From a virus: a DNA stretch of 47,644 bases. Positions 1 to 47,644 of this stretch are shown one piece after another (the stretch's first letter is position 1; every line of letters begins with the position of its first letter). The stretch is taken from IMG/VR virus record IMGVR_UViG_3300005086_000089, positions 1-47,644 of that record; one strand, written 5' to 3'. The notes below the pieces were generated by a model. That model saw nothing but the letters and a program-made list of their open reading frames with translations. It made no database searches and had not been told where the DNA came from. A program made the position numbers and the translations under genes.

Positions 1-35
1 CATTTAAAAAATTTCAATTACACTTCTTACATTCC

Positions 36-163
36 TTGACATTACCTGAGCCCCTTCGGGGCTTGGGCTCTGTCTTAAGGGTCTTATTCTTATTATAGGG
101 CTCTTAATACAGGGGCAGCCTTAACGGGGGTCGCTGAATCAATCACTTAAAGGAGTGTTAAGA
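36..163 (+). promoter_or_regulatory. leader region of the rightward early operon
   Basis: This non-coding stretch lies before the first rightward gene. A TTGACA hexamer sits at 36-41, but I see no convincing -10 at the right distance. A 6-bp GC hairpin with a TTC loop (AGCCCC at 49-54, GGGGCT at 58-63) has no U-tract on either strand, so it is not a standard terminator. The leader ends in AAGGAGTG (149-156), the Shine-Dalgarno form used throughout this operon. The - strand terS gene begins at the far right end, so if the genome is circular or permuted this is a divergent promoter region. Exact promoters are not resolved. Confidence 0.35.
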
Positions 164-418
164 ATGAAAAAACATGATGCAGTGAGCAACTTTCACTGGA
201 TAGAGATTGAGCACGAGCAACCTGAGTGGTCTGACGAACTGGAGCCATGTTTCAAATACCGTGGTGATACCTACTTTTTGAGCGAGTTTATGAGATTTAA
301 TTTTACAAATTCTAATTACAACGGGTACTGGGACGGATACCTTCAAACGTCTAACTTTGGTGGGCTTGTTGTTAAAATCCATGATACTGGAGATGCTGTC
401 CAGGTAGGAAGGAGCTAA
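164..418 (+). CDS. hypothetical early protein (84 aa)
   Basis: First gene of the rightward early operon. I chose the ATG at 164 because AAGGAGTG (149-156) lies at proper distance. An upstream in-frame GTG at 155 is part of that Shine-Dalgarno and cannot be the start. The product is acidic and aromatic-rich, with several Trp, Tyr and Phe in the middle third (the WIEIEHE, YFLSEF and YNGYWDGY stretches). It has no signal peptide, membrane segment or metal motif. Only a few bases separate it from the next gene, so they are co-transcribed. I do not recognise a family. Position suggests an early host-modulating or regulatory accessory protein (inference). Confidence 0.72.
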   Translation: MKKHDAVSNFHWIEIEHEQPEWSDELEPCFKYRGDTYFLSEFMRFNFTNSNYNGYWDGYLQTSNFGGLVVKIHDTGDAVQVGRS

Positions 419-421
419 AAA

Positions 422-631
422 ATGAGATGCAGGGACGAGATAATGCAGGATACAATGGAGATAATGAGAGCCAGGGACGCTGAAGAAAAGCGTCTCAAGG
501 GCTTAATATCCAAATATCAGGAGCAACTGGAGAATGAGACCGACGACGATGAGATTTTAGAGCTTGAATACACCATCCTGGAGCTACAGGATAGGCTGGA
601 TTGTCTGGATTTAGATTACAGACTGGATTGA
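422..631 (+). CDS. small coiled-coil early protein (69 aa)
   Basis: The ATG at 422 follows AAGGAGCTAAAAA. The protein is almost wholly helical and strongly charged. Heptad-like spacing of Leu and Ile from about residue 25 to the end (ISKYQEQLENE, ILELEYTILELQDRL) predicts a coiled coil, so it is probably a dimer or a docking partner. It has a CxxxE start (MRCRDE) but no Cys pair that would bind metal. It starts four bases after the previous stop, which implies translational coupling. I do not recognise a family and assign no function. Confidence 0.68.
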   Translation: MRCRDEIMQDTMEIMRARDAEEKRLKGLISKYQEQLENETDDDEILELEYTILELQDRLDCLDLDYRLD

Positions 632-640
632 GTCAATAAA

Positions 641-706
641 TGGGCTTGAGCCTGACGGCTTGAGCCTATAGATTGGAGTAATCCAAAAAAATTTATAAGG
701 AGTGTA
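641..706 (+). promoter_or_regulatory. double-hairpin leader cassette, copy 1
   Basis: Hairpin I pairs 641-652 with 657-668, 12 bp with G-U wobbles closed by a TGAC loop (core GGCTTGAGCC). Hairpin II pairs TTGGA (673-677) with TCCAA (682-686) around a GTAA loop, a GNRA tetraloop. An A/T spacer and TAAGGAGTGT (696-705) follow, then the start codon at 711. There is no U-tract, so it is not an intrinsic terminator. The same architecture recurs before the genes at 1367 and 2128. It could be an RNase III site, an mRNA stabiliser or a protein-binding element. Confidence 0.6.
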
Positions 707-710
707 GAAA

Positions 711-1073
711 ATGAAAATGGAGAAAAAATACTTTCAGGTAGAAGGTAGAGACGAAGAGATTAAGGTATCCCTAGATTATGAGTTAGGTGGATACAGTTTT
801 ATGAGTGGAGAATCGTCAAAACGTGGGTATTATGCTTACGTCCAGCCTGTAGAGCGTGGAGACGGATTTGAGAGCTTTGTAGTATTTGATGGGTTCAAGG
901 TGTTGCTGAATCCTGTAAATAGACAGAGCAAGAAACAGGAAGCCATCGCACGGGAAAAATTCAACGTTCAAGCTGAGCAGTTTGCTAAAAGAATAGCACG
1001 CAAAAAAGGATGGGTTCTTACAATCGAAGAAGAGCAACGTCAAGAAAAATTAACTAAAGCTTGGAAGGAGTGA
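711..1073 (+). CDS. hypothetical early protein (120 aa)
   Basis: The ATG at 711 follows AAGGAGTGTAGAAA and the structured leader cassette, so initiation here may be controlled by that RNA. The N-terminal two thirds look like a small beta-rich domain (alternating YFQVEG, KVSLDYELGGYSF, GYYAYVQPV, SFVVFDGFKVLL). The last 40 residues are a basic amphipathic helix rich in Lys, Arg, Gln and Glu. There is no Cys motif or membrane segment. The next gene starts only a few bases after its stop, with its Shine-Dalgarno inside this gene's end. Family not recognised; a nucleic-acid or protein-binding accessory role is plausible but unproven. Confidence 0.72.
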   Translation: MKMEKKYFQVEGRDEEIKVSLDYELGGYSFMSGESSKRGYYAYVQPVERGDGFESFVVFDGFKVLLNPVNRQSKKQEAIAREKFNVQAEQFAKRIARKKGWVLTIEEEQRQEKLTKAWKE

Positions 1074-1077
1074 GAAA

Positions 1078-1293
1078 ATGTTAAGTCTACCTAGTCAGCA
1101 TATAGAGTGCAAGGACTGTAAAACTGAATGGTTTGGAGAAAAAGGAGACCGTTGTCCAGTTTGCAACAGTTCTAATACCTATGAATGGACAGAAGAAGAA
1201 GAGAGAGAGCACGTCATAGAGCTACTCGTAGAAAAAGGATTGAGCAGAGAAGATGCAGAGAGAAGAATCAAGCGACTTACAGATATTTACTAG
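1078..1293 (+). CDS. zinc-ribbon protein (71 aa)
   Basis: The ATG at 1078 is preceded by AAGGAGTGAGAAA, which overlaps the end of the previous gene. The N-terminal half has two Cys pairs, CKDC at about residues 11-14 and CPVC at about 27-30. These form a classical four-Cys zinc ribbon (CxxC-x12-CxxC). The second half is a highly charged helix (EEEEREHVIELLVEKGL) ending in a helix-hairpin-like segment (SREDAERRIKRL). Proteins like this are common in phage early regions and usually act as small DNA-, RNA- or polymerase-binding factors. Zinc binding is well supported by the sequence; the partner is unknown. Confidence 0.75.
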   Translation: MLSLPSQHIECKDCKTEWFGEKGDRCPVCNSSNTYEWTEEEEREHVIELLVEKGLSREDAERRIKRLTDIY

Positions 1294-1301
1294 GATTGCT
1301 G

Positions 1302-1360
1302 GAGCCCTTGAAACTCAAGGGTTCTGTGGAGTCCTAGACTCTAATAAAATTAAGGAGTGT
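1302..1360 (+). promoter_or_regulatory. double-hairpin leader cassette, copy 2
   Basis: Hairpin I pairs GAGCCCTTG (1302-1310) with CAAGGGTTC (1316-1324) around AAACT. Hairpin II pairs TGGAGTC (1327-1333) with GACTCTA (1337-1343) around CTA, counting G-U pairs. An A/T spacer and TAAGGAGTGT (1351-1360) follow, and the gene starts at 1367. The stems differ in sequence from copies 1 and 3 but keep the same order, sizes and spacing, as expected for conservation of RNA structure. The loop region CTTGAAACTCAAG is nearly identical to copy 3. Confidence 0.62.
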
Positions 1361-1366
1361 TAGAAA

Positions 1367-1861
1367 ATGAATAAAGAAAAATTGAGAGAGCTATTAAACA
1401 TCCAATGGAACGGCTCAGATGACATGGTGGAGCACTGTCTAAGAAACTGTGCCTACATTCAGTATGATAACAAGTTTATAGACGTGGGAGCTTTAAAGCC
1501 ATCTATCACTAAGACCTTGTGGTTTGATGACGAGAAGCCTATCCCTAAGCTTACTAAAGAGCTATTCATAGACAGGAACCTAAAATATAATGCACCTAGG
1601 AAATTTGACCTTGAAAACGACCACCATGAGAGACTAATCCTGGTTCCTAAATACTATGATGATAAGACCGAGTTTGCTTTATGCTCTTTGACTTATGGAG
1701 AGAGAACCTATCAGTCTTACGAGTACGTTGATAGCGACATGCTCTTCCAGATAAACAAAAAGATAATTGAGTTGCAAGCTAAGTACATCAAGCGACTAGA
1801 GAACTATTGGAAGAGATACAAGAAACATGTAAGCTGTCGTGGATACTGGGTAAACAGGTAA
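1367..1861 (+). CDS. hypothetical early protein (164 aa)
   Basis: The ATG at 1367 has AAGGAGTGTTAGAAA upstream and is the first gene after leader cassette 2. The product is a soluble, mixed alpha/beta protein. The N-terminal 30 residues are helical with two Cys (residues about 24 and 28, HCLRNC), too few for a metal site by themselves. The middle is rich in Asp, Lys and Pro, and the end is a Lys/Arg/Tyr-rich helix (AKYIKRLENYWKRYKKHV). It has no membrane segment or signal peptide. Largest gene of this operon. Family not recognised and no function assigned. Confidence 0.72.
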   Translation: MNKEKLRELLNIQWNGSDDMVEHCLRNCAYIQYDNKFIDVGALKPSITKTLWFDDEKPIPKLTKELFIDRNLKYNAPRKFDLENDHHERLILVPKYYDDKTEFALCSLTYGERTYQSYEYVDSDMLFQINKKIIELQAKYIKRLENYWKRYKKHVSCRGYWVNR

Positions 1862-1877
1862 AAGGAAGGAGTTTAAA

Positions 1878-2048
1878 GTGAAAGAGATAACTAAAGAGCG
1901 AAAGAAAAAAATGTTTGAGTACCTTGAGATATTGAGAGACTCAGGAATTACGAATATGTATGGAGCTGGAAGTTATTTAAGAGAAATGTTTGATATAACT
2001 AAAAAACAGTCCTATGAAGTATTGAAAGAATGGATGGATAATTATTGA
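1878..2048 (+). CDS. small hypothetical protein, GTG start (56 aa)
   Basis: This short gene starts at GTG 1878 behind AAGGAAGGAGTTTAAA, a very strong Shine-Dalgarno, and stops at TGA 2046-2048. It fills an otherwise empty gap in register with its neighbours. The protein is helical. It begins with a basic stretch (KEITKERKKK) and continues with a pattern that could be a minimal three-helix DNA-binding fold: a first helix MFEYLEILRDSG, a turn TNMYGAGSYL, then REMFDITKKQSYEVLKEWM. The helix-turn-helix reading is an inference. It is followed directly by leader cassette 3. Confidence 0.66.
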   Translation: MKEITKERKKKMFEYLEILRDSGITNMYGAGSYLREMFDITKKQSYEVLKEWMDNY

Positions 2049-2056
2049 GAATTGTC

Positions 2057-2122
2057 GTGGGGCTTGAAAACTCAAGCTTCACAGAGAGTTCTTATGAGCT
2101 CTAAATAAATTATAAGGAGTGT
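2057..2122 (+). promoter_or_regulatory. double-hairpin leader cassette, copy 3
   Basis: Hairpin I pairs GTGGGGCTTGA (2057-2067) with TCAAGCTTCAC (2072-2082) around AAAC, 11 bp including G-U pairs. Hairpin II pairs AGAGTTC (2085-2091) with GAGCTCT (2096-2102) around TTAT, 7 bp with one G-U pair. An A/T-rich spacer and TAAGGAGTGT (2113-2122) lead to the ATG at 2128. It is the longest stem set of the three copies. No U-tract follows either hairpin, which argues against termination as the role. Confidence 0.64.
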
Positions 2123-2127
2123 AACAA

Positions 2128-2454
2128 ATGAAAAAAGGATATCTTAAGACCTTTACGGAGATAGGATACCGTACTCTAATAGCTATTAACATCGACAGCC
2201 ATAATGGATTCTTAGAACCTACTAGCTTAGATGATGATGACCTTGCTGAAATAGACAAGAATATGCTACCTAATGAGTATCGAGAGCCTAGAGACAAGAA
2301 AATAGTAATCAAGAACGACGTTGATATGACTACGATTGAGAAGTTCTACAGAAGGACTACCGACACTTATGTATATTTATACAGAGAGTTCGTTAATAAA
2401 ATGACAGTCTATAATAATACTGTCAAAAGCTACATAAAGGAAGTGGAGAGATGA
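2128..2454 (+). CDS. hypothetical early protein (108 aa)
   Basis: The ATG at 2128 follows leader cassette 3 with AAGGAGTGTAACAA. The product is soluble. Its centre is acidic (a DDDDLAEIDKN stretch at about residues 35-45) and its last third is rich in Tyr and Thr (TTIEKFYRRTTDTYVYLYREF). I see no Cys motif, membrane span or catalytic signature. Its stop codon overlaps the next start in an ATGA arrangement (2451-2454), so the downstream zinc-ribbon gene is probably translationally coupled to it. Family not recognised. Confidence 0.7.
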   Translation: MKKGYLKTFTEIGYRTLIAINIDSHNGFLEPTSLDDDDLAEIDKNMLPNEYREPRDKKIVIKNDVDMTTIEKFYRRTTDTYVYLYREFVNKMTVYNNTVKSYIKEVER

Positions 2455-2768
2455 AGGAGAGACAGGAGCTACATTGCCATGAGTGTAATAAGTATGTCCA
2501 GTTTGATTTAGATTTAGACCTGGACGGGAATCATGTTTTAACGTGTCCTAATTGTGGACATGAACATTGTAGAGTTGTAAAGAATGGGAAGATAACTGAA
2601 GAGAGATGGTCGAGTCGTAACAGGAATTTAGCGACAATAACGGTATCACAAGCTACGGTCACAACGACAACTACCAGCACCTATACGAGTTATGATTCTA
2701 CGAGTAGCAATACAACTGATACATCCAGCTTTTTATACAGTTCCTGGATGAATACAACGACAGGTTAG
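2451..2768 (+). CDS. zinc-ribbon protein with Ser/Thr-rich tail (105 aa)
   Basis: The ATG at 2451 overlaps the upstream stop by four bases. Residues about 8-45 form a four-Cys zinc ribbon (CHEC, then CPNC followed by GHEHC). The rest, about residues 55-105, is an unusual low-complexity tail dominated by Thr, Ser and Tyr that ends in FLYSSWMNTTTG. I have the impression that a similar zinc-ribbon plus ending like FLY-x-SWMNTT occurs in other Firmicutes phages, but this is memory, not a search. The tail is likely disordered. The role is unknown; nucleic-acid binding through the ribbon is a reasonable inference. Confidence 0.76.
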   Translation: MKERQELHCHECNKYVQFDLDLDLDGNHVLTCPNCGHEHCRVVKNGKITEERWSSRNRNLATITVSQATVTTTTTSTYTSYDSTSSNTTDTSSFLYSSWMNTTTG

Positions 2769-2779
2769 GAGATGATATT

Positions 2780-2923
2780 ATGATATTCATAAAAGCGACT
2801 TTATACGGGTATGGGTTCATATGCTTACTAGTGTTAATTACCTGGTTATTTGAAGATAAGCTTGACCTAGGGGAAGAAGAGATACAGGAAGATGAGATTG
2901 ATAAAGACGGAAGGTGGAACTAA
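2780..2923 (+). CDS. small single-span membrane protein (47 aa)
   Basis: The ATG at 2780 is preceded by TAGGAGATGATATT. The stop TAA (2921-2923) overlaps the next start in a TAATG arrangement. Residues about 8-24 (YGYGFICLLVLITWLF) form one hydrophobic transmembrane helix. The remaining 23 residues are strongly acidic (EDKLDLGEEEIQEDEID). By the positive-inside rule, Lys at residue 5 followed by the span suggests a cytoplasmic N-terminus, although the acidic tail leaves this uncertain. Phage early operons often encode such mini membrane proteins, for example for superinfection exclusion, but nothing here proves that role. Confidence 0.66.
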   Translation: MIFIKATLYGYGFICLLVLITWLFEDKLDLGEEEIQEDEIDKDGRWN

Positions 2924-3105
2924 TGAAAAATAAGAGTCCTTGCTATAACTGTAAAAAGAGAGTGGTTGGCTGTCACAGCAACTGCTCTGATTATCAAGAA
3001 TGGAAGAAACAAAATGATAAGCGTAAAAGAGATAAGTACCTGGACGACGAGTATACTGGGTATATAAGCGACTTGAGAAGTGCTGAGAAAAAGGAGTGGA
3101 GATAG
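2923..3105 (+). CDS. small Cys-rich, basic protein (60 aa)
   Basis: I chose the ATG at 2923, inside TAATG, because GGAAGGTGG lies 6 bases upstream. An in-frame GTG three codons earlier is inside that Shine-Dalgarno. Residues 7-24 hold four Cys (CYNC, GCHSNC), giving a compact metal-binding knuckle of the form CxxC-x8-CxxxC. The rest is charged helix (WKKQNDKRKRDKYLDDEY) followed by a short acidic-basic tail. Short proteins of this kind are widespread, mostly unnamed phage genes. Zinc binding is likely; function unknown. Confidence 0.7.
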   Translation: MKNKSPCYNCKKRVVGCHSNCSDYQEWKKQNDKRKRDKYLDDEYTGYISDLRSAEKKEWR

Positions 3106-3360
3106 ATGCAATGTCCTATAAAAACAATGAGAAAAATAAAAAGACATACCCAGGATGACGTTGCTAGATATTTACGGGTAAGTCCTTCTACAGTTTGGAG
3201 ATGGGAGCACAACGAAATGATGCCGACTCCTGAGAATTTTCTTTACATAGCTGAATATTTGGAGTTATCTGTAGAACGTGCTATTAGATTATGGGTAGAA
3301 TGGAGTAAGAGAGACAAGGGAGAGTCAGTTGAAGAGTTTTTAATGAGATTGGAAGGGTAA
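3106..3360 (+). CDS. XRE-family helix-turn-helix regulator (84 aa)
   Basis: The ATG at 3106 follows AAAAAGGAGTGGAGATAG. Residues about 8-60 form a Cro/CI-type HTH. TQDDVARYLRVS is helix 2 and the turn, PSTVWRWEHNEMMPTPE is the recognition helix and following loop, and NFLYIAEYLEL is helix 4. The C-terminal 25 residues (WVEWSKRDKGESVEEFLMRL) are an extra helix. It is the last gene of the rightward operon and faces the oppositely transcribed main block, with its stop codon inside the terminator hairpin. It is probably a transcriptional switch. A second XRE protein heads the replication operon (14207-14422), so the two may form a CI/Cro-like pair (inference). Confidence 0.85.
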   Translation: MQCPIKTMRKIKRHTQDDVARYLRVSPSTVWRWEHNEMMPTPENFLYIAEYLELSVERAIRLWVEWSKRDKGESVEEFLMRLEG

Positions 3361-3382
3361 TGTATACCCTTCCTATTTTTTT
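3351..3382 (+). terminator. intrinsic terminator of the rightward early operon
   Basis: GGAAGGGTA (3351-3359) pairs perfectly with TACCCTTCC (3365-3373) around ATGTA, and TATTTTTTT (3374-3382) follows. This is a textbook rho-independent terminator for the + strand. The regulator's TAA stop (3358-3360) lies in the ascending arm. On the - strand there is no T-tract after the hairpin, so it does not look bidirectional. Confidence 0.9.
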
Positions 3383-3395
3383 GCGTTAAAACCGA

Positions 3396-3785
3396 TTATA
3401 CAGCTTCCTGTTCGTTCATTTCCAGCATCAATGATACACCTTCGTCTATTAATTCAAGTAATTCCATATCCACGTTTATATCGTTCTCCCTACACAATTT
3501 TACAGTGTAGGATTTCACCAGAGCCTTTTGCTGATTTAATGATTTATCGCTTAAATCTTCTACCATGTAATAAGCCTGTACGACGTAGTTGGTCACCACC
3601 ACCAGCTTGTCTTTATACTTAAATTCTTCTCCTAGTCTCTCGACTATCAGATTAACGAGCTTTAAGGTCAGTTCTATTATTTGCTTCTCATGCTCTTCAA
3701 TCTTAGCTTTTCTCATGAAGTAAATTCCACCAGCTCCAATTAAGACAATGATTACTAATGCAAGTAGAGTATAGATTGAATCCAT
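3396..3785 (-). CDS. LLH-type holin-like membrane protein (129 aa)
   Basis: An N-terminal transmembrane helix (about residues 5-24, LLALVIIVLIGAGGIYF) is followed by a basic RKAK stop-transfer. A long charged helical domain of about 100 residues comes next (KQIIELTLKLVNLIVERLGE and onward). One N-terminal span plus a soluble helical tail of this length matches the topology of phage LL-H-type holins. The start ATG at 3785 overlaps the previous gene's stop (TAATG), so the two membrane proteins are coupled. Both lie at the 3' end of the leftward block, a common position for lysis genes. An alternative is a spanin-like or inner-membrane accessory protein. Confidence 0.68.
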   Translation of the reverse strand: MDSIYTLLALVIIVLIGAGGIYFMRKAKIEEHEKQIIELTLKLVNLIVERLGEEFKYKDKLVVVTNYVVQAYYMVEDLSDKSLNQQKALVKSYTVKLCRENDINVDMELLELIDEGVSLMLEMNEQEAV

Positions 3786-4018
3786 TATTTACCACCTTCT
3801 ATTTTATTATTTTTTATTTGTGATGCTAAACTGAGACCGTTTACTGCTCCTACTGCTGTTATTAACCCTAGTGTCATGGTTAAAAAATTACTTGGGACAT
3901 CGCCCCTTGCTAACACTAGATATACCGATACTCCAAAAGCTATCAAGAATGTGACTACTAGAGAACTTACTCTAGTCTCGTCTATACTGAGCCCGTCTTT
4001 TAAAAAATCAAGTTTCAT
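3785..4018 (-). CDS. small two-span membrane protein, candidate holin (77 aa)
   Basis: The ATG at 4018 follows AAAGGGGGTTTTTCT. Two hydrophobic helices are evident: VSSLVVTFLIAFGVSVYLVLA (about residues 18-38) and FLTMTLGLITAVGAVNGLSLA (about 45-65), separated by a short loop (RGDVPSN). The tail ASQIKNNKIEGGK is polar and basic. The size and two-span hairpin fit a class II holin. It overlaps the downstream LLH-like gene by one base, so the pair may act as holin and partner or antiholin (inference). The N-terminus MKLDFLKDGLSIDETR is polar and probably cytoplasmic. Confidence 0.65.
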   Translation of the reverse strand: MKLDFLKDGLSIDETRVSSLVVTFLIAFGVSVYLVLARGDVPSNFLTMTLGLITAVGAVNGLSLASQIKNNKIEGGK

Positions 4019-4126
4019 AGAAAAACCCCCTTTTTCTTAGATTTCCTGCTCCTGATAGCTCTCTATTTGGATTTTAAGCGATTATTGTAATGCCCTTAAT
4101 ACTATGGTATACCTTGTTTTGACCCT

Positions 4127-4150
4127 GGTACCTTCCTGGGTACCTGGTAC
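4127..4150. repeat. GGTACC cluster in the pre-holin gap
   Basis: The gap 4019-4149 contains no gene. It holds GGTACC at 4127-4132 and 4139-4144 and a third partial copy, GGTAC, at 4146-4150. The first two can pair as a 6-bp hairpin, and the third overlaps the exonuclease stop codon. The sites may be operators or part of a processing signal upstream of the holin-like genes. I see no convincing -35/-10 pair or U-tract, so promoter and terminator are both unproven. Confidence 0.3.
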
Positions 4151-4956
4151 TATATAAGCTCACTAAAATGTATTGGTTTCTCTAGTTTCTTTGTATCCCT
4201 ACAGTAGTTACATGTTTCACACCTGTCAGGCTTAACTTCTCGGGCTCTTACCTGTTTAAATCTAGGGACGTTAGCTTCTAGTAATGACAGTGCATTATCT
4301 AGGTCTTGCTGAGTGAATCCTATTATCTCAAGGTCTGTCTCTTTTGAGCTTGTTGGTTTTTCAATCCCTGCGATGTAAAATGGTAACTTCTTGCCTACGT
4401 TTTTCTCTACAATCTTTTGATAGAGTGCCCCCTGGATGTCATATCCCCAGTATCTAACAAAATCTAATTTACCCCAATCTTCAGTATACAGGGCTCCGTG
4501 CAAGTCCCTGGTAGTTTTTAAGTCCACTATTGCCGTGTCAGGTATCAACGAGTCAATCTTACACTTCCACTGTATCCCAAATATCTCAGCTGTCATGATA
4601 ACCTGCTTCTGTCCAGACATGTATTTCACAAATAAGTCATCTCTTTCAGCTCTCATTATCATGTTCTCTGCTTTTTTATAGTCAGCTCTTAAGGTTCCTT
4701 TTTGTGTAAATATATCAGGATTGTCTGCCTTGAATTTAGGTAGAGTCCCTTCAAAATAAGAGTCTACATAAGAGCCTATAAGCATCGCTGTAGATGGTTC
4801 TTCATAGTATCTACCTTCCAGCTTAGCTAATGCCATAGCTTCACATCCTGGTTTACCTAGGGTTCCCATCATTTCCGTATATTGAGAGTAACTAGCATAG
4901 TGCTGGTTAGCTTCTATCGAATAATAATTCTCTGCCGTTAATACAAAATCACTCAT
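4150..4956 (-). CDS. RecE/Cas4-like PD-(D/E)XK exonuclease with Fe-S cysteines (268 aa)
   Basis: The PD-(D/E)XK core is visible: E124 on the preceding strand (MTAEIFGIQWKCKID), D135, and IVDLKTT giving D145 and K147. An upstream G-x3-D motif lies at G61-D65, and a helix YDIQGALYQ follows. Cys38 and a C-terminal CxxCxxC (C246, C249, C252) match the single N-terminal plus clustered C-terminal cysteines of Fe-S nucleases such as Cas4, AddB and the phage DUF3799 group. The probable role is a dsDNA exonuclease producing ssDNA for the RecT annealase encoded 4 kb upstream. The Shine-Dalgarno lies in the end of the preceding gene (8-base overlap). The family assignment is firm; the polarity of digestion is unknown. 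Confidence 0.86.
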   Translation of the reverse strand: MSDFVLTAENYYSIEANQHYASYSQYTEMMGTLGKPGCEAMALAKLEGRYYEEPSTAMLIGSYVDSYFEGTLPKFKADNPDIFTQKGTLRADYKKAENMIMRAERDDLFVKYMSGQKQVIMTAEIFGIQWKCKIDSLIPDTAIVDLKTTRDLHGALYTEDWGKLDFVRYWGYDIQGALYQKIVEKNVGKKLPFYIAGIEKPTSSKETDLEIIGFTQQDLDNALSLLEANVPRFKQVRAREVKPDRCETCNYCRDTKKLEKPIHFSELI

Positions 4957-5206
4957 TCTCTATCGCCCCCAAATCTTTTAGGATTACTTTTATATCTCTA
5001 ATTGCTTCTCCATATCCACACAATTTAATTATCTCTTCGTCTATTTTTTCTCTCTTAGCTTTTTGTTTTCCTTCTAGTCTTTGTAATACTATACTACCAA
5101 CGTCTTTTTTTAACTTGGTAAACATATCTTTTTGCTCTTCTTTTTTAGTAGGCTTATAGGTGTTTATGCCTTCTTCTCTATCTTTGCTTATGTCTATTTT
5201 CCCCAT
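4949..5206 (-). CDS. hypothetical charged protein preceding the exonuclease (85 aa)
   Basis: The ATG at 5206 overlaps the previous stop by one base (TAATG), and its 3' end overlaps the exonuclease start, so the three genes are translationally coupled. The protein is very rich in Lys, Glu and Asp (GKIDISKDREEG, YKPTKKEEQKDMFTKLKK) and predicted helical, with a C-terminal AIRDIKVILKDLGAIE helix. There is no membrane span or metal site except one Cys. Coupling suggests a partner of the nuclease or a replication accessory protein, but that is inference. Family not recognised. Confidence 0.7.
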   Translation of the reverse strand: MGKIDISKDREEGINTYKPTKKEEQKDMFTKLKKDVGSIVLQRLEGKQKAKREKIDEEIIKLCGYGEAIRDIKVILKDLGAIENE

Positions 5207-5547
5207 TATTCCACTCCTTTATCATCTAATTTTTTGAAAAATTCTTTGTGTTTTTTCTCTTTTAGTTTTTTGTACCTTTCAAATTCTTGCTCTATATCCT
5301 TTAGTCTTGCAAGCTCCTTGTCGCTTATAAGATTTATCCCTGCTCTTGTGCTTAACCTGTCTCTATTTCTGTATAAATATGTTTCATAGTTTATGTACCC
5401 TTTGTCTGCCATATCTTTAGCATTATCGTTAATTTTCTTTGCTAGCCCATTCATGAGCTCTGATTTTATCTTAGCTTCTATTTCACTTCTCTCCATATCT
5501 GTCATATCGACAACTGCTTCTGCTGTAATGCTTATATAATCAATCAT
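5206..5547 (-). CDS. hypothetical helical protein (113 aa)
   Basis: The ATG at 5547 has GATAGGGTGATGAT upstream. Residues 1-45 (DYISITAEAVVDM, RSEIEAKIKSELMNGLAKKIND) and the final 40 residues (LARLKDIEQEFERYKKLKEKKHKEFFKKLDDK) are long charged helices; the latter probably forms a coiled coil. The middle has a Tyr/Arg-rich segment (GYINYETYLYRNRDRL). No catalytic motif is visible. It is coupled to the next gene by TAATG. Family not recognised. Confidence 0.7.
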   Translation of the reverse strand: MIDYISITAEAVVDMTDMERSEIEAKIKSELMNGLAKKINDNAKDMADKGYINYETYLYRNRDRLSTRAGINLISDKELARLKDIEQEFERYKKLKEKKHKEFFKKLDDKGVE

Positions 5548-5551
5548 ATCA

Positions 5552-5737
5552 TCACCCTATCCTTAGCATTTTGTGTCGCTTATCCCCATATACAAAAGCA
5601 AGAGTTTGGTAATGGAATACCTCTTCTTTAGATTTTCCTAAAGCTTTAGCTATTTCAGGGATTGTTCCTTCAACTATTTTTTCTCCATCTTTGTAGTATG
5701 CAAATACCCTTTTTTTATTTACTGTATTCTTAGTCAT
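5552..5737 (-). CDS. small DNA-binding-like protein (61 aa)
   Basis: I chose the ATG at 5737 because TAGGAGAGTAACT precedes it. An upstream in-frame start would overlap the neighbouring gene without a Shine-Dalgarno. The protein starts very basic (TKNTVNKKRVFAYYKDGEKIVEG). It continues with TIPEIAKALGKSKEEVFHY, which looks like a helix-turn-helix of the kind used to read an intron-homing or operator half-site. The C-terminal GDKRHKMLRIG is also basic. It is probably a small DNA-binding regulator (inference). Confidence 0.66.
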   Translation of the reverse strand: MTKNTVNKKRVFAYYKDGEKIVEGTIPEIAKALGKSKEEVFHYQTLAFVYGDKRHKMLRIG

Positions 5738-5747
5738 AGTTACTCTC

Positions 5748-5915
5748 CTACGGTATAAGTGTTTGAGCTTCTTCTGATGCCACAACTTTTATGCTCTCAA
5801 TTTTTTCATATACATAACTTTCTTTTGATTTCTTGCTTGCTTCATTAAAGTCTTTTGCCAATACAAATATGCTGTCTTTAAATGCTCCCTTAAATCTAAT
5901 CTTATATAAAATCAT
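5748..5915 (-). CDS. small hypothetical protein (55 aa)
   Basis: The ATG at 5915 is preceded by AAAGGAGGAAAA, a near-perfect Shine-Dalgarno, so the longer reading frame from further upstream is not used. The sequence YKIRFKGAFKDSIFVLAKDFNEASKKSKES suggests two beta strands and a helix. The C-terminus (KVVASEEAQTLIP) overlaps nothing and the next gene follows 11 bases on. The mRNA upstream of this gene carries a long inverted repeat (5934-6006) that could control its translation. Family not recognised. Confidence 0.66.
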   Translation of the reverse strand: MILYKIRFKGAFKDSIFVLAKDFNEASKKSKESYVYEKIESIKVVASEEAQTLIP

Positions 5916-5933
5916 TTTTCCTCCTTTATAAAA

Positions 5934-6006
5934 CATGGGCAGCAACTACTTATGAACAAAATATGCCACTATTTAGTTTCAAAGATTTAACCTACTGCTA
6001 CCCATG
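5934..6006 (-). promoter_or_regulatory. long inverted repeat before the 55-aa gene
   Basis: CATGGGCAGCA (5934-5944) pairs with TGCTACCCATG (5996-6006), 10 of 11 positions, leaving a 51-nt AU-rich loop. It fills the gap between two genes. In the - strand mRNA it ends about a dozen bases before the AAAGGAGG Shine-Dalgarno of the 55-aa gene, so it could be a cis-regulatory 5' leader or a protein-binding site. No strong U-tract follows, so a terminator is less likely. Confidence 0.5.
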
Positions 6007-6014
6007 TCTTTAGC

Positions 6015-6293
6015 TTATTTATATCTGTAGTCTCTCTCTGTCTTTTGATAGTCGCAATAGCCTATTATTTCAATATTGTCTCCACCGACTTCAACAGCTT
6101 TTTTGTTATCAGATAAAACTACTAATACTGTAAAATAGCCGTTTCCAGTTTCTATTACGCTTTTTTTATCTATTACAATCCCTTCTCTACCTTTATATTT
6201 CCCATCATCTATAAACACGTCTGTTTTTCTAGGGATTATTTTTTTAAACAATCTTTCCCTATGTTTTTTCAATGTTTCCATTGTTCTACTCAT
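6015..6293 (-). CDS. KOW/SH3-like small protein (92 aa)
   Basis: Residues about 25-80 resemble a KOW-type SH3 barrel as in NusG or L24: DVFIDDGKYKGREGIVI, then FTVLVVLSDNKKAVEVGGDNIEII. The N-terminal 20 residues (METLKKHRERLFKKIIPRK) are a basic helix and the C-terminus (YCDYQKTERDYRYK) is polar. The start at 6293 overlaps the end of the upstream gene by eight bases. KOW domains bind RNA or RNA polymerase, so an antitermination or translation-modulating role is possible, but the resemblance is by eye only. Confidence 0.68.
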   Translation of the reverse strand: MSRTMETLKKHRERLFKKIIPRKTDVFIDDGKYKGREGIVIDKKSVIETGNGYFTVLVVLSDNKKAVEVGGDNIEIIGYCDYQKTERDYRYK

Positions 6294-8265: not shown

Positions 8266-8607
8266 TTATACGATATCTGGGCTTGGTAGTTCAACTTTTT
8301 CTCCGATTTTCTTCCACAAGTGTAAACAATGCGGATGTAGGTTAACATACTCGTCTTTAGGTGGATGGAACTGTATAACCGTTTCGTTCTCATCCCAGAA
8401 AATATCTTTTATCATACACATTTCTTCCCAGGTCGGGTCTTTAGATTTATAAGAAACACTTACATGTTCCCATCCATCGTGCCATGATGCTATAAATACC
8501 ATCCTGTTTTTAATCAACGGATGAATCACTGTTCCACCCATAGCATACTGCCCTTGTTGCTCTATGTTTAGTCTTGGATTTTTTTTAATTTCTTGTATCT
8601 CTCTCAC
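8266..8607 (-). CDS. phage protein with WxH...HPP...HLW motifs (113 aa)
   Basis: I place the start at GTG 8607 because AAGGAG lies exactly 6 bases upstream. The frame also continues to another GTG at 8625 that has no Shine-Dalgarno. Conserved-looking motifs are SWHDGWEHVSVSYKSKDPTWEEM, where Trp, His and the WEEM segment stand out, then FHPPKDEYVNLHPHCLHLW and a final ELPSPDIV. This pattern is familiar from an unnamed phage family (often described only as a DUF) encoded near recombination genes. The concentration of His and Trp suggests a metal or nucleotide site, but no reaction is known to me. Confidence 0.75.
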   Translation of the reverse strand: MREIQEIKKNPRLNIEQQGQYAMGGTVIHPLIKNRMVFIASWHDGWEHVSVSYKSKDPTWEEMCMIKDIFWDENETVIQFHPPKDEYVNLHPHCLHLWKKIGEKVELPSPDIV

Positions 8608-17024: not shown

Positions 17025-18077
17025 TTAAATCATCTCCTTATAATATTTTATTTCGTGAAATAAGTTCTTAATTTGTTTTATGGAATCTTCCTGTCCACCG
17101 AAATACAACTGTTTCCCATCAGGCGATAAAACCGAGTCCACAACATAATCATAAACTTCTTCAAAAGCCCATATTGTTTCTTGTGTTGAAATCTTTAATT
17201 GAATTATTTCGCTAGGAGTCGAAAAATAAAGATATTCACCACAAGGAGAAACATCTACTGTATAATATCCCACCCCTGTTGAATAAGTCCAATCACTACT
17301 CCCATCAGAAGTGTTAATTCGTTTTAAGGAATGACTAGTACCAGAAGATGCTGAGTAAAGATAACTACCGTCAGATGATATTGCTAAGTCTTTAACAAAA
17401 TAAACATGTCCTGTAAAAGTCCACCCAGCACTACCATCTGAAATATTTATTTGTTTAACTGTATAATCCCGGCTTCCTGAATAAACGTAATTACCGTCAG
17501 GCGATACTATTAATGCCTCAACATCATCTGTATGACCCGAAAAAGTCCAGCCTGCACTACCATCTGAGGTGTTAATTTGCCTTATTATCCCAGTCGAAAT
17601 TCCAACATAAACAAAATTATCATCAGGAGATATAGCCAATGACTTAGAAGAACCTTCTCCTGATGCTCCAGTATAAGTCCAACCATTAGCACCAGTTGAA
17701 GCGACAAGTTGTCTTACTATAGGCTGTAATGTCCCTGTGTACTCATCTGTGCCAACATAAATATAATCACCTGAATTTGAAACGGCTATTCCTACATTAG
17801 ACCTAGAAAAAGTAACTGTCCAACCTATACTACCATCAGATGTATCTATCTGCCTTACTATATTATCATTACCACCTGAATAAATATAAGCACCATCTGG
17901 AGATAGACCTAATGAAGAAACGGTATTTGTAGGAGCTGTCTGTACCCAACCTAAATCTGGTACATTAACATTCAGAACAGGAGCATATCTCGTACTCCCT
18001 ACATAAATTGAGCCTAGTTGTTTGTTTACTGGTATATCTAGTTTAGAATTTATTGCTTTCTTAATTATTCCCCACAT
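17025..18077 (-). CDS. seven-bladed beta-propeller adhesin, copy A (350 aa)
   Basis: An N-terminal amphipathic helix of about 28 residues (MWGIIKKAINSKLDIPVNKQ) is followed by seven WD/PQQ-like repeats of about 40 residues. Each has the shape PDGxYxYxGxxDxxVRQIxxSDGSxGWTxTG. The blades can be counted directly and close a seven-bladed propeller. The protein lacks a signal peptide, as expected for a virion protein. It is an adjacent paralogue of the next gene (same anchor helix, same repeats). Tail adhesins with a duplicated propeller probably recognise a cell-surface ligand; binding specificity is unknown. The Shine-Dalgarno is AAAAGGTGGTGAGTTAA. Confidence 0.84.
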   Translation of the reverse strand: MWGIIKKAINSKLDIPVNKQLGSIYVGSTRYAPVLNVNVPDLGWVQTAPTNTVSSLGLSPDGAYIYSGGNDNIVRQIDTSDGSIGWTVTFSRSNVGIAVSNSGDYIYVGTDEYTGTLQPIVRQLVASTGANGWTYTGASGEGSSKSLAISPDDNFVYVGISTGIIRQINTSDGSAGWTFSGHTDDVEALIVSPDGNYVYSGSRDYTVKQINISDGSAGWTFTGHVYFVKDLAISSDGSYLYSASSGTSHSLKRINTSDGSSDWTYSTGVGYYTVDVSPCGEYLYFSTPSEIIQLKISTQETIWAFEEVYDYVVDSVLSPDGKQLYFGGQEDSIKQIKNLFHEIKYYKEMI

Positions 18078-20466: not shown

Positions 20467-21747
20467 TTATATTAATAAGTCTATAAACATTATAGACATT
20501 GGTACTTTCCTACTACCAGTCATCTTCCATTTAGGTGTTGCCATCTGTGTTGAGCCCCCACCATCTAAAGCTATAGCCATAACACAACCAAGCTCCTTCA
20601 TATGAGAAACACATTTTTCTAAACTTACCATATAGTGTCTAACCCAATAAATCATACCATCTTTATCTACTCCAATAGAAGCATGGTTTGCTATCCTAGT
20701 TACATCTGAATAGTCGTCAACCTTACCAGTCACTACATTGACATCTCTTTTAAAACCTTCTGATGCTGGGTTATAACCATATTTACTTATTAAGCCTATT
20801 CCACCTATAGCCCACCATACCTTCGAGGATTTATTAACATCGTTATCCACGAAAAGTTCAGAGGCTCTTTTAATTTTTTCTATCCCAAAAGTTCCATCTC
20901 TGTAGTAACATAAAACACTTTGAGGACAATCAAAACCCCAGAGATGATTAGCTGTATCTTTAACTATTTTGTTTTTCAGTACAAGGATAGAAGTTAAATC
21001 TTTAGTAATCATATTAAAAAACGTTCCATTACCACCTGCATATTCAAAGTCGTTTACGTCTTGAAAATCTAAAGATATCCCAACATTATAAGGGTGTCCT
21101 TTGATATACCTATAATACTTATCTGGTACTACATCTGTAGGTGGGTAAAATGTAGTTTTAGGCAAGTCTTTTAAGTTAGAATGATTATATTTCATATAAT
21201 ACAAATTCCCACTAACACTTAAATCATTCTCGATATCCTTAACCTCTTCTTTTTGATTAGGTGTTTTATAATCAAGAGTGTCATATACGATAACTATGTA
21301 GTTCCCAATCCACCTGTTGTAACCAACCCTGGTTACCCTACCAGTAAAAGTTCTATTCCAGTAAAATATCCTGTGCTGAGCCAATCCGTCTCGGTTAATG
21401 AAGTCAATAGCTGGATGATGTCTTTTGTATAAATTGTAGTAGCTAGCTCCCGTACTCATTATCATGCCGTCGTAATTAACTGTCACCTTGTACGGAGCTT
21501 TAAAGAAGTCGTCGTGTATAAAGTAATTAGCTTGTTCTCTACTTCCCTTCACGCCCCTTTCATAATAAATATCATCAAGAGTCCACCACCTGTCGTAATG
21601 CTCACCTTCCACTGCTTCAAGGTGTATATGAACCCCGTCGGATTCTCCTGTGTCACCAGCTATCCCTAAAATATCTCCGTTGTTTACCAGTTGACCGTTT
21701 TTAACTTTAGGCTCTTTTAGATGACAACATACCATTGTATATTTCAT
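20467..21747 (-). CDS. permuted M23 peptidase fused to phosphodiester glycosidase (426 aa)
   Basis: Residues 1-50 hold the C-terminal half of a M23 domain (VNNGDILGIAGDTGESDGVHIHLEAVEG, with the HxH at HIH). Residues about 100-165 then hold what looks like the N-terminal half (HHPAIDFINRDG with the HxxxD-type pair, followed by GRVTRVGYNRWIGNYIVIVYD). Residues about 300-426 are a NAGPA-type phosphodiester glycosidase (WAIGGIGLISKYGY, HASIGVDKDGMIYWV, MAIALDGGGSTQM). The ATG at 21747 has AAAGGAGATGTTTTAA upstream with a stop codon immediately before it, so no N-terminal extension exists. As no other lysin is present, it probably degrades the cell wall or teichoic-acid-linked sugars during entry or lysis. 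Confidence 0.82.
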   Translation of the reverse strand: MKYTMVCCHLKEPKVKNGQLVNNGDILGIAGDTGESDGVHIHLEAVEGEHYDRWWTLDDIYYERGVKGSREQANYFIHDDFFKAPYKVTVNYDGMIMSTGASYYNLYKRHHPAIDFINRDGLAQHRIFYWNRTFTGRVTRVGYNRWIGNYIVIVYDTLDYKTPNQKEEVKDIENDLSVSGNLYYMKYNHSNLKDLPKTTFYPPTDVVPDKYYRYIKGHPYNVGISLDFQDVNDFEYAGGNGTFFNMITKDLTSILVLKNKIVKDTANHLWGFDCPQSVLCYYRDGTFGIEKIKRASELFVDNDVNKSSKVWWAIGGIGLISKYGYNPASEGFKRDVNVVTGKVDDYSDVTRIANHASIGVDKDGMIYWVRHYMVSLEKCVSHMKELGCVMAIALDGGGSTQMATPKWKMTGSRKVPMSIMFIDLLI

Positions 21748-21761
21748 TTAAAACATCTCCT

Positions 21762-24700
21762 TTAATAAGGTTCGTAGCCCCTCATTTCAATGATTTTATC
21801 TCTAACACCTTGACGTACGTCGTTTAATATATCATTTAAGATGTCAACCTGTTCGTAATCGTCAAGGGTACCAAGACCGTATCTTTCAATCTCTTCTCGA
21901 TATCTAATTTTAGCCTGTTCTCCAGCCCATTTTGATAGTTCTTCGTATTCTTCAGGAGTTAATACTACGTCTACTGGAGTTTTCTCCTGGTTCTGCCAAG
22001 TCTGTACTGTCCATTTTTTGTCTAAATATTTAGGAACATGTCGGCTTTCACCTGTGTTTCTTATTAGGTTCAGCACTTTTTCCTCTTCCACTGTAGGGTT
22101 AAATTCTCCCATTATTGCTGGAGCAAAGAATGAGTTAAAGAATTTGGTTCCAAAAGTACCTTCTAGCCCTTCAAAGAAACTAGAGCCAAAGTCGTACTCA
22201 GACTTATTCCCGAACTGGTCGTAGTAAGCTGGAAGAGTTTGACTAAGGAAAGGTATCTTTTTAATCGACAAGTTAAGAGCTGTTTTTAAATTACTCTCCA
22301 TGTCTCTAGGATTCCTAACTGTAGGGTCTATCAAGTATGCCATTTGAGAGAACAAAGTAGGTGTAAAACTCGATAATATTCCTTCAGAGAAATTCATTAC
22401 ACCTTCCTCAAGGCTCCTAGCAGATAAAACATCTGTTATGCCTTGTAATAGTGGTTGCTGAATCAATGTGTTAGCTCCTGAAGCAACAGCCCCAAGTCCA
22501 GTAGAGACAACATCCTTAAGTTGTTCTTGCCTATACATGTCAGCTCCCATAGCTATTGATATAGCACTAGGTTGGAACCAATCATAAGTCATGTAAGTAT
22601 CCCCAGGCTGAGGTTCTATCTGCGATTCTCTTAACCCTGATGAAACCCATCTAATTAAAGCATCTATATTAATTGAGTAGTCTCTTAACCCTAAACTTCT
22701 TCTAAAAGAACTTATTCTCCAAGGTTCCTCGTCGTCTGGAGTACCAGAGATAACACCAGCTCTAGCTAATACATAGCCTAAACCAACTGCAACTGTACCA
22801 GTAACTCCTCTCGCAATTCCTTCTACCATAGCTTTTTTAGAGTACAATGTTAGCTCACCTTTTCGTGCCTGCTGTATCATTTTAAATACCTGTATGCCTG
22901 CGTTAACAAAAGTATAATCAACACCTCTTGCTATTAAGTTAGCAGGAGTTTTAGGATATTTAAGTAAGAATGACCCAACACCGAAGCCGTCTTTACCGAT
23001 ATGGCTTAACAGTTGTTTAGTTTTAACTGCCATATCACTTATTAAGTTAGCATCCTGGAATGTTCTATACAAGCCTTTATGGTGTGCATATTCAAGCATC
23101 TCAGGGGTAGGCTTACTAACTCCTTCCATGAGCATTAATTCTCTAAGTTCATCCTCGAAAGCCTGTATATATGAACCTCTATCAGTCACTCTCAAACCAA
23201 CATTGAGTAAAAGCTCAAGGTCTGCCAATATACCTTCTCTAAACACTCTTGACTTAGGTAAGTCGTACTGGGTGTCTAAGCTAGTTGTGTCTATACCTTT
23301 TACAGCATCTTCAAAACCTAAACTTATACCTTTTTTAAATCCTTTCCACTGGGTTGACGCCTTTTGACCTGGAGTGAAAAACTTAGTACGGTCAGTTTTA
23401 GTAATCATAGAAGCAAACTTATCTAACGGTACTGCCACCTGGTCTGATATGTACTCAGCTAAAGAGAACCCAGCGTTACCAACCACGTTTCTTATTAAGG
23501 TCTTAGGATTTAATAACTGCATCATGGTCTGGAAGAGGTCTATTTTTTGCCACATTGAAGGTTCAATTTGAGCAGACATTATGTCTATCATCTTAGCTAC
23601 TTCAACGTCTTTAGCCCTTCCATCTTCCATTGTCTGAATATTTTGAGCCATTGTATGGATTGTGTTGATGGTGTCCTCGTCTGCAAATTGCATCCCTAAT
23701 TTTTCAGCAATTAAATGCTTGTATTGTCTATGCGTAAAAGCCCCTAGATTAGACAACTCTATAATTCTTTGGTCTATAGTAGGAGACTCTTTCTTAGGTT
23801 TTTTATCTGCAAAAATTCTCTTAAGTTGTCGTTCCTTCTCTTCACGTGTTAATCTATCCATTTCTTTATATATATAATCTTCTAGCAACATAGCTTCAAC
23901 ATCTTCAAGCCCAGCTCGTTTTATCAATTCCTCAGCTAAGGATTTTTTAACTGAATTCTGTTGAGTGTAGTGTTGTTTAACTATATCTGCTATGTTAATT
24001 TCTAAGGTTTTCAACTCCTGCTTAACCGTTTGTCTCAACCTTGATTGAGGGAAGGTCTTGTCAAGGGTAAACTCAAAGAACGGTTGCAATTTAGCTAGTG
24101 CTTCTTCATTGTCTTTAAGTATGTTTTCTTCCAGTTGTCTTTTTGCTAGCTTCCAAACTTCCCTATACCTATCCCTGTTTTTAATAGCTTCTACAATAAA
24201 TTCCAGAGGGTCTTTAGTTACAACTTTTTGCTCTAAAGGAACCTCTTCTTTAGCTAGTTTAAACAAGGTATCTACCATCATTTTAATTGGGTTATCCTCT
24301 GGAGTTTTCTCACTTAGGGTAGCAAGAACTCTTCTTGATAACATTTCTTCTGGTTGCATTTTAATTATCTTGTTTAGCCAATTGCCGATGCTAAGCTCAG
24401 TAAGGGCGTTAGCGTTTATCTTATCTATTATATCTCTAACTTTTTGAGACTTAGTTCTTAGGTCTATCTCTTCTTTAGGAGTGTAAGTATCTTCTATGGT
24501 TTTCTCAAGTCTCCTAACCAAAGTAGCTGGAGACAACCTACCCATAGCTGAAAGAATTTGGATTCCTTGACCCATGTTGTTAGCCTTTTGAGACATTCTC
24601 TCTAGCAATAGTAACGACCTGTCCATGGTTTCATGGTTTTGAGACATTTTAGATATGAGTAATTGTCCTGCCATAAACATTACAGTGGTACCTGGTTGGT

Positions 24701-27700
24701 TACCTAATATCCAATCCATTACGGCTTCTTCGCCCTCTTCATTCAGTATGTAAAGAGCTTCAAGCATTGTTTCAGAGTTGTGTTTAACTTCATAAGTCCA
24801 CTTTTTAGAATTGATTAGGTCTTTAAATTCTTGAGATATACCGTCCATGTTAGCAACTGTTTCCATGAAGCTTAGTTCTCCAGTATCTCCTTGACCTTCG
24901 CCTTTAACCTCTTTAGCTTGGTACATGCTTTGACCGTATTTTTTAATCCTGTCGTAAGATTTAGGAGTTAACTCAAACCTATGGACAAAATAATCTCCTA
25001 CTTCCTCTTCGTTTAAAATCTCAGGTCTGAAACCGTCGTATACTTCCTGTATAGCTACATGCTCTTCTTGCCCTGGAGAAACGTCGGCTATTTTTACAAA
25101 GTCATACTTGCCGTTCCACTTGTTACTTTTATTTAGTTTATTAAAGTTTTGTACCATTATTTCGTCATATATAGTTGACTTACCTTTCTCGTTAGCCATA
25201 AATTCTGGGATGCTAAAAGGAGCATAGAGGATATTTTTCAACTCATCTTTACGCTTCCTGATAGCTTTTCCTTCGTCAACATAAACCCTATACATTAATG
25301 CTATGCCAACTTCTCTTACTTTTTCCAGCGAACCTAGTTTTTCAAGCTCGTCTAAATATTTTTCAAATTTAGGGTCTTTTTTCTTATAAGCTTCTATAAA
25401 AGCGATAGTTTTTTCAGACCCCATATCCCTTATGAGAGATGTTGCTAGGTCTGTTAAGAATCCAGTTTCGTCGTACTTTTCTTTAGCAATTCTAATCGAC
25501 TCGATATCAAACCCTAAGCGTTCAGCGTTAGCTACAATGTGAACAGCTGGTAATATGTTAGGTCTAGCAAAAATACCTCTCTTTAAAGCGTCAATTTCTT
25601 CTTCAGTGAAAGTGGTATCCTCGTAAAAATCTGAAAACTGGTTTGTTAAGGTAAAAAGTTCTGTGTTTGTTAGAGAATTATTGAAAGAAGATTTAAGTTT
25701 GTCTATTTGAAAAGTAGAGTCATCCTGGTTTTGAAGATTATAAAACTCATCTGATTGAACCTTAGCATATTCAGAAAACAACTTTTTCTTTTTCTCTATC
25801 TCTTCTCTTATTCTGTCTGCATAATCTTTACCTACATAATCATCTAAAGACTTGCCTCCTCTGTAGAACTTGCCATCTCTAGTTTCGTATGTGAATGTAA
25901 CATCTCCATTGTCCGTTAAAAGTCTCAACTCTAAACCTGAGATGTGATATCCTTTTACATCAAAAGTATCGCTAGATAAAAACAAATGACTTAAACGCAC
26001 ATCGTTTACATGTTTATTTATTTTATATCTATTAGCTTGTTCTCTGCCTGTGCTCCAAGCAAGACCGTCGTATTCACTTTCAACAGCTAAATTCACAAGT
26101 TGTTTTATTACCATCTCTTGCCATGCACTTTTATATGGAGCAACAGGTAGTGGGCTAGTCACGTCAGCAACGGATAAGGCTACCTCTCTCAGTTCCTCAA
26201 GGGCTTCCATACCCATTTCATCGTATAATCCTTCAGCTCTATTCATTAAAAGCTCGTATTTTTCAGATGAGTACATGTCGTTTTCTATCATAAAGTCCCT
26301 TAAAACGTCGTATAAGTAGTAGCTATAATGGTCTGTGTAGTTTTTATAAACATCGACTATATGCTGTTTTTCGTACCCTCGTTTAGTTATATTGATTTTA
26401 GTCGTAGCTTCCCCAAGGGAAACATCATTGCCTCTCTTTTCAAGCATTAATTTTTCAGTCATAAATTTTAAAATCTGTTCGTCAGTAGCTCCTAAAGTTT
26501 CTTTTAAAAGTCTTTGAAAGTAGGTATATCTTTCTTTGTTTATACGAACTATTGGAGCTTGTCTCGACGAATACTCGTTACTTTCACCATTAATACCTTC
26601 GACAGAAACAGTTTCCCTGTAACCAGTAAAATCGTCAAAAAACCTACTAACAATATCTCTAGCTACATCCATTGGAACATAATTATTATTATCAGATAGA
26701 GGTACTCCAGTATCAAGTTTGCCATAACCACCAAAAAATTCAGCAACATAATTGCTCGCTCTAATGCCACTTATAGCTTTTTTCTCGAAGTTTCGTTTTC
26801 TAGCAACTTGAGACCCATGTAAATCTGACTGTACTTCATCTATAAGTAAATATTTTTTGCCTTCAATCTTTATATCTTTTGTTCTAGCATGAGCAATAAT
26901 ATCGTCTCTATCCCAATGATTAGTATTGAATTTAAAAGCTTTTGGTAGAGTAAATAGAAACTCTCTATAGTTGTCTCCGAGGTCGTAAGCCCATTGCTCA
27001 TACCTAGGTTTACCGTAAGCTTCGTAACCTAATGTTTTATAAACTTTATCTTCTTTAGTTTCTCCAGTGTCAATCATGTCGTTAAGGTTCTTGAAAGCGT
27101 CCACGAAAAACTCTGGTTTAGTTTCTAAAAACTCATTAAAAGTTCTTCCTTCTATAAAGGTGTAATCAAGGATAGAATTTACAAGACCAGGAGAATTAGA
27201 GCCTTTTTGAAATATATACGATGCCATTTCCAGTATTATTTGATGGAAATTATTCTCAAGCTCCTTAGCTTCATCTAATACAGGTTGTGGATAAGCTATG
27301 CCGTCATTCCCGTTGTTGAACCTGTTGAGCCAGTCGTATGTTTCAAAAACATATTCCAAAGGTCTTTTGTTGACTTGTTTATTGTAATAATTTTGGCTGT
27401 CATTTCCTTTCAACACTTCAAACCTGCCAAAATCAGCATGTAATAACTCCCCTAGGTTTTCTCTCCAATGTTCTGATTGGAGTTTTTGGTAGGATTTTTC
27501 AAAGTCTGTTTGTGAAAAAACATCCAATCTCATTGCTAAACTACTTGTTTTTTTATCTATCTTTAAAAGTCTTTCTTTGTTCTCCTGTAAATACCAGGAA
27601 CTAAGTTGTGTATATTCACCTGTAGCTTCGCCTATAAGTCTTTCTAATGACTTTAATTCAGAAAGAACAGTAAACCTTTGTGACTTCAGTTTTATCCCAT

Positions 27701-46724: not shown

Positions 46725-46800
46725 AACCTACCCCCTAAAAAAAGGAAGGACACATCTCTATGCCCTTCTAAAATAAAGAAAATATTTAAGGAGTGTATGT

Positions 46801-47636: not shown

Positions 47637-47644
47637 AAAATTTT

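Follow-up and report, generated by a model that had tools for sequence, protein, structure and literature searches.

The window, i.e. the complete 47,644-nt stretch of DNA analysed here (a 47.6-kb record), represents a tailed phage, in which genes for TerS, TerL, portal and major head proteins were found together with genes for DnaB, RecT, RusA, a DnaD-like loader and a phrog_36 transcriptional regulator. The latter set points to a host that is probably a member of the Bacillota (Gram-positive), and a Clostridia MAG contains one TerL relative of the phage. The minus strand encodes a WD40 beta-propeller protein (17025-18077), a protein (20467-21747) that begins with an M23 peptidase fragment and ends with an NAGPA (phosphodiester glycosidase) domain, and an ORF of 3802 aa (21762-33170), whose sole PHROG match is phrog_21 (labelled portal protein; residues 824-1149) and in the rest of which no domain was recognised.

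Both ends of the window are bridged by an 8.6-kb contig, L013, with 100% identity over either end, and 489 nt of the phage genome (L013 1363-1851, minus strand) are absent between window positions 47644 and 1. The missing piece, read from L013, holds a consensus sigma-A promoter (TTGACA-17-TATACT) oriented toward the early genes, as is a possible 29-aa leader ORF in the same 489 nt. An intrinsic terminator on the plus strand at 3351-3380, a 9-bp stem followed by TATTTTTTT, closes the early operon, and the terminator scan lists no plus-strand terminator-like sites between 84 and 3351. The early genes probably form one operon, with a presumed transcript from the L013 promoter to the terminator (3351-3373), and a Cro/CI-type HTH gene (3106-3360) is its end. 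Zinc-ribbon-like stretches are present in two of the early proteins; all of them score under the curated Pfam cut-offs.

Three intergenic segments on the plus strand (640-713, 1300-1369 and 2057-2130; copies 1, 2 and 3) share a common order of a strong hairpin I, a weaker hairpin II, a spacer of A/T, TAAGGAGTGT as an exact 10-mer and an ATG. A sequence-only reading of this DNA had pointed to these segments, and each of them indeed contains the whole series; its estimate of 5-7 bp for hairpin II agrees with ours, whereas hairpin I, with 11-13 bp, slightly exceeds the 9-12 bp proposed. In copy 1, which follows the TGA stop (629-631) of the gene at 422-631, hairpin I (640-669) has 13 bp and the loop TGAC, hairpin II (670-686) is weak with 5 bp, and TAAGGAGTGT starts at 696, ahead of the ATG (block 696-713) of the gene at 711-1073. 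Copy 2 consists of a hairpin I of 12 bp with the loop AAC (1300-1326), a hairpin II of 7 bp with the loop CTA (1327-1343) and TAAGGAGTGT from 1351 with the ATG of the gene at 1367-1861 (1351-1369). Copy 3 has 11 bp and the loop AAAC in hairpin I (2057-2082), 7 bp and the loop TTAT in hairpin II (2084-2101), and TAAGGAGTGT from 2113 with the ATG of the gene at 2128-2454 (2113-2130). The distance from the upstream stop codon to hairpin I is 8, 6 and 8 nt, and the intergenic gaps measure 79, 73 and 79 nt in copies 1, 2 and 3, respectively. A two-gene block precedes each copy. Given the L013 promoter and the terminator at 3351, all three copies seem to belong to a single early operon; the segments, which had been described as leader cassettes, do stand ahead of early genes but would then be intercistronic rather than separate 5' leaders. 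In accordance with the earlier view that they are not terminators, the terminator scan lists no stem followed by a U-tract at any of the three copies.

Six occurrences of the block AAGGAGTGT in the window compare with 0.5 expected, and four of them head genes of the early operon. Besides copies 1-3, the fourth is preceded by Leader 0 (30-149, plus strand; z -5.8), a larger multi-hairpin leader of the first full early gene, with the SD block and the ATG of the gene at 164 in 150-166. In the folding model, Leader 0 shares the SD block of copies 1-3 and forms a different, larger structure. A near-complement upstream (~24-37) is predicted to pair with its SD, which has an unpaired probability near 0 and, of the SDs in the four AAGGAGTGT leaders of the operon, is the only one that looks closed; Leader 0 may work differently from copies 1-3. 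At the other end of the window, TTTAAGGAGTGT is also present at 46787-46861, ahead of a 19-codon lysine-rich ORF (MKKKNKSTAKFCMQFLALS), and a strong double hairpin upstream of this site is not evident on reading the sequence. The same end carries five GTTCCA repeats in ~100 nt (46626-46725), possible iterons or protein-binding sites, and three occurrences of TTAAAAGTCCC in a non-coding stretch (46857-46970).

The leader folds are considerably more stable than those of shuffled sequences (z = -4.6, -4.4 and -5.0 in copies 1, 2 and 3). Compared with dinucleotide shuffles, hairpin I reaches significance in all copies (p <= 0.002), and hairpin II yields p = 0.07, 0.015 and 0.004, hence it is not significant by itself in copy 1; combined over the three copies by Fisher's method, p is ~0.0004. 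A descriptor that requires, in this order, a stem of at least 9 bp, a stem of at least 5 bp, an SD and an ORF spanning 40 codons or more matches 3 of the 39 SD-plus-ORF sites in the window, exactly copies 1-3, and 5 of 1,717 sites elsewhere (2.15 Mb of TerL-related and SD-matched phage contigs); since it was devised after the finding had been seen, these counts gauge rarity and give no unbiased p-value. Among TerL relatives, three of 954 sites match, and the window's own upstream segments, shuffled in 300 rounds, returned no match. Strong single hairpins upstream of an SD are not rare: 34 of 540 GC-matched sites in related phages reach -16 kcal/mol or better. Judged by these folding statistics, the double hairpins are real RNA structures.

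The plus strand folds with -25.0, -23.2 and -24.9 kcal/mol in copies 1, 2 and 3, the minus strand with -17.1, -15.1 and -14.6 kcal/mol; the difference of 8-10 kcal/mol in favour of the plus strand arises because the stems contain G-U pairs. A comparison of the arms agrees with the earlier observation that the stems differ yet keep pairing and that copies 2 and 3 have a CTTGA/TCAAG core in common. In hairpin I of these two copies, the five loop-side pairs are identical, and the outer pairs comprise four two-sided changes, one one-sided change and one unchanged pair. The 5' arm of copy 2 pairs with its own 3' arm at 12 of 12 positions, with the 3' arm of copy 3 at 7 of 11. The hairpin I stem of copy 1 has an essentially different sequence. 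Owing to the strand asymmetry and the two-sided pair changes, selection in this one genome looks to act on plus-strand RNA pairing, after either duplication or convergence. Both observations uphold the interpretation as a repeated RNA element preceding several early genes.

Scans of viral and genome collections with the 164-aa early protein, the exonuclease, TerS and DnaB yielded no phage with homologous early genes, and the 120-aa early protein is the sole early protein with weak matches in SPbeta-like Staphylococcus phages. TerL identity is 100% in L013, ~80% in L014 and L015, both of which end before the early region, and 40-49% in the others, none of which carries the early genes. Among 391 sampled genomes of a Clostridia class, TerL turned up in distant form only, and an early protein was not detected. 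The pattern CTTGA-CAAG-TAAGGAGTGT matched 66 contigs, mostly by chance. One of them, L264, has at 6118-6185 a single long stem rooted in the upstream stop codon, followed by AATTATAAGGAGTGT, a TAAGGAGTGT-type block, and an ORF of 128 aa; lacking any detectable protein similarity to the window, it is at most suggestive. Most other genes of L264 use AGGAGG. A covariance model (R1), built from a MAFFT alignment of the copies, holds only 10 pairs because hairpin I of copy 1 was misaligned, and beyond the window and L013 it matches L264 only, with E ~0.07 and with L264 itself pre-picked by the pattern. L121, which has one small early domain in common (39.6% identity), was discarded, since a leader of this kind is missing at its AAGGAGTGT site. 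L141 (TerL 47%) carries at 8380-8475 strong hairpins of 9 and 14 bp directly before a AAGGAGTGA start; the second of these resembles a bidirectional terminator.

The double-hairpin form itself holds as the predicted optimum for copy 3 with its full flanks, but copies 1 and 2 with flanks prefer a single imperfect stem (25 bp in copy 1, 21 bp in copy 2), in which the region of the upstream stop codon (in copy 1 the TGA at the base of the stem) pairs with the region of hairpin II (in copy 2 its 5' arm), replacing the two hairpins. This extension is only modestly better than in shuffles (p 0.015, 0.11 and 0.042 in copies 1, 2 and 3). When the stop codon and 3 nt are masked, mimicking a terminating ribosome, the two-hairpin fold is obtained in all three copies. 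Mean SD openness amounts to 0.80, 0.71 and 0.85 in the masked state and to 0.78, 0.53 and 0.46 in the unmasked state, so that the SD is predicted to be at least partly open throughout. The actual spacers leave it more open than shuffled spacers do, which contradicts repression of the SD by copies 1-3, and closed and open states are separated by a mere 0-1.3 kcal/mol.

These folds might be taken as a switch gated by the ribosome: in its absence, the 5' half of hairpin II would be paired with the stop region, leaving the 3' half free to cover the SD in part, and a ribosome terminating upstream would reverse this and couple the gene pairs. The return of both hairpins on masking, with an increase of mean SD openness in each copy, and the near-constant spacing between stop and stem speak for such a switch. 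The small energy gaps, an SD in copy 1 that is open in either state, and spacers that occlude the SD less than shuffled ones make it doubtful, and for these reasons we rank it under a processing or stabilising role. Its fuller version, in which termination upstream repeatedly refolds a stop-anchored stem and frees the next SD, so that early proteins would be made in a fixed order and ratio, seems quite improbable. Leader attenuators of the erm type, which work with ribosome stalling, similarly employ mutually exclusive pairings around an upstream stop and a downstream SD; here, by contrast, energy differences of the predicted size would not give a clear off-state, and the SD of copy 1 never closes. 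Programmed readthrough (a hairpin 8 nt past the stop) was rejected on reading the sequence: none of the three joints has the next gene in the frame of the previous one, and at copy 1 a second stop interrupts the upstream frame within a few codons.

Several further explanations were weighed against the same evidence. The copies could be passive: duplicated or repeatedly acquired gene blocks, each bringing its own strong RBS, with unregulated hairpins that merely keep the SD clear or are remnants of insertion. The open SD, the two-gene blocks with one leader each and the frequency of strong single hairpins in related phages suit this idea, but the pairing is retained despite differing stem sequences, including G-U pairs, and the double form is rare among TerL relatives; we regard passive cassettes as rather unlikely. 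The hairpins form inverted repeats in DNA as well, and the copies could act at that level, either as operators for the HTH protein encoded at the end of the operon (3106-3360) or as hairpin promoters of an N4-like virion RNA polymerase, an enzyme of about the size of the 3802-aa ORF. Many of the pairs are G-U, i.e. mismatches in DNA, the spacer between half-sites varies in length, and a consensus sigma-A promoter exists. The 3802-aa ORF has no polymerase match in PHROGs, Pfam or PDB sequences, and with no polymerase recognised the N4-like promoter was dropped; a DNA-level role as a whole is very improbable.

Alternatively, the double hairpin could be the recognition unit for a trans-acting RNA-binding factor of phage or host, a translational regulator or an antitermination factor, which would co-regulate the blocks. 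Several near-uniform copies with a core common to copies 2 and 3 would be expected of such a site, the HK022 put RNA is likewise an element of ~70 nt with two stem-loops (PMC9378689), and the zinc-ribbon-like stretches in two early proteins, albeit below cut-off, might offer a candidate. Stem and loop of copy 1 are unrelated to the others, however, which leaves no common recognition sequence besides the SD; without a predicted terminator between the copies, antitermination would have no target there; and the loops of ANTAR targets (6 nt, A1 and G4) are absent. Nor did we recognise an RNA-binding regulator of a known kind among the proteins scanned. We found no evidence for the joint control by a trans-acting factor that the sequence-only reading had envisaged, and consider it unlikely.

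Our tentative preference, which we would put somewhat short of an even chance, is that the copies are intercistronic joints of one early polycistronic mRNA that are cut by host RNases or shield against them. The sigma-A-type promoter in the missing 489 nt would transcribe a row of small genes up to the terminator at 3351, and each joint, 6-8 nt past the stop of a gene pair, would present a stable stem, a small second hairpin and an exposed strong SD. Cleaved by host RNase III, or acting as barriers to host RNases, the stems would leave the upstream two-gene message with a hairpin-protected 3' end and the downstream message with a defined 5' end, structured and with its ribosome site free, and early proteins could thus be produced in differing amounts. 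If so, the gene dosage scheme of T7 and SP82 early genes would extend to an uncultured lineage, and the compact, near-modular form (stop, stem, small hairpin, SD) could be spotted elsewhere; if the copies are switches instead, this phage would be one of the rare cases with repeated structure-based coupling of translation.

Taken alone, hairpin I (11-13 bp) falls short of the length expected of a two-turn RNase III substrate. The extension to 25 and 21 bp is weak relative to shuffles and not optimal in copy 3, and these points count against RNase III. Moreover, neither the fixed TAAGGAGTGT block nor the second hairpin is required by this enzyme, and because RNase III alone leaves both unexplained, our preference stays tentative. 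In support of the joints, all three copies occupy intercistronic positions in the presumed early polycistronic mRNA, and their stems, 11-13 bp or, extended in copies 1 and 2, 21-25 bp, fall within the 10-36 bp spanned by mapped duplexes of the B. subtilis enzyme (PMC11780869). Also in favour are the excess of the hairpins over shuffles and their rarity in other phage contigs, the folding advantage of the plus strand with the two-sided pair changes, spacers that leave the SD more open than shuffled ones, and the regular distances from stop to stem and from gene to gene. Two of the roles proposed at the outset, RNase III sites and stabilisers, thus still fit best, with cleavage as a presumption.

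With regard to known systems, the initial statement that no named element has this form needs correction, as SAS/ESAS, the HK022 put RNA and the RNase III sites of T7 and SP82 are close architectural relatives. Covariance models of Rfam 15, applied to positions 1-6000, gave no match above threshold; the sole hit, InvR on the minus strand, scored 21.9 bits versus a gathering score of 60 and is a sub-threshold chance match. Closest among named architectures are the ESAS of cluster K mycobacteriophages and the put RNA. SAS/ESAS, the function of which is unknown, have an inverted repeat just upstream in half of the sites, and the 17-bp repeats of ESAS conserve sequence, not pairing, for which reason their authors favour DNA binding (PMC3203893, PMC12699233). 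They resemble our copies as repeated blocks right at gene starts with a fixed SD-containing sequence, but here pairing is retained while sequence varies, in place of sequence-conserved inverted repeats without RNA pairing support. On reading the start regions, we did not find the SAS consensus GGGATAGGAGCCC (<= 2 mismatches); TAAGGAGTGT has AGGAG alone in common with it.

The put RNA of HK022 is a ~70-nt element of the early transcript with two adjacent stem-loops, and its copies adjoin early promoters and suppress downstream terminators (PMC9378689). Two adjacent stem-loops in ~70 nt are also present in our copies; these, however, lie deep in the operon, with no downstream terminator of the same operon listed on the plus strand between 84 and 3351. 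ANTAR targets, likewise two consecutive hairpins in a leader, depend on an overlapping terminator and on loops of 6 nt that carry A1 and G4 (PMC3369931), whereas our hairpin I loops are TGAC, AAC and AAAC, the hairpin II loops comprise 3-4 nt, and no terminator overlaps the copies.

The early mRNA of T7 contains RNase III processing sites, and such sites are also attributed to SP82 early mRNA (Panganiban and Whiteley 1983, as cited in PMC12502629). These are the nearest in setting: they too are intercistronic stem-loops at several joints of one early transcript of the host polymerase, ahead of ribosome sites. In contrast, the stems of the window phage are shorter unless the stop-codon extension forms, and our copies have in addition a second hairpin and an SD block of fixed sequence.
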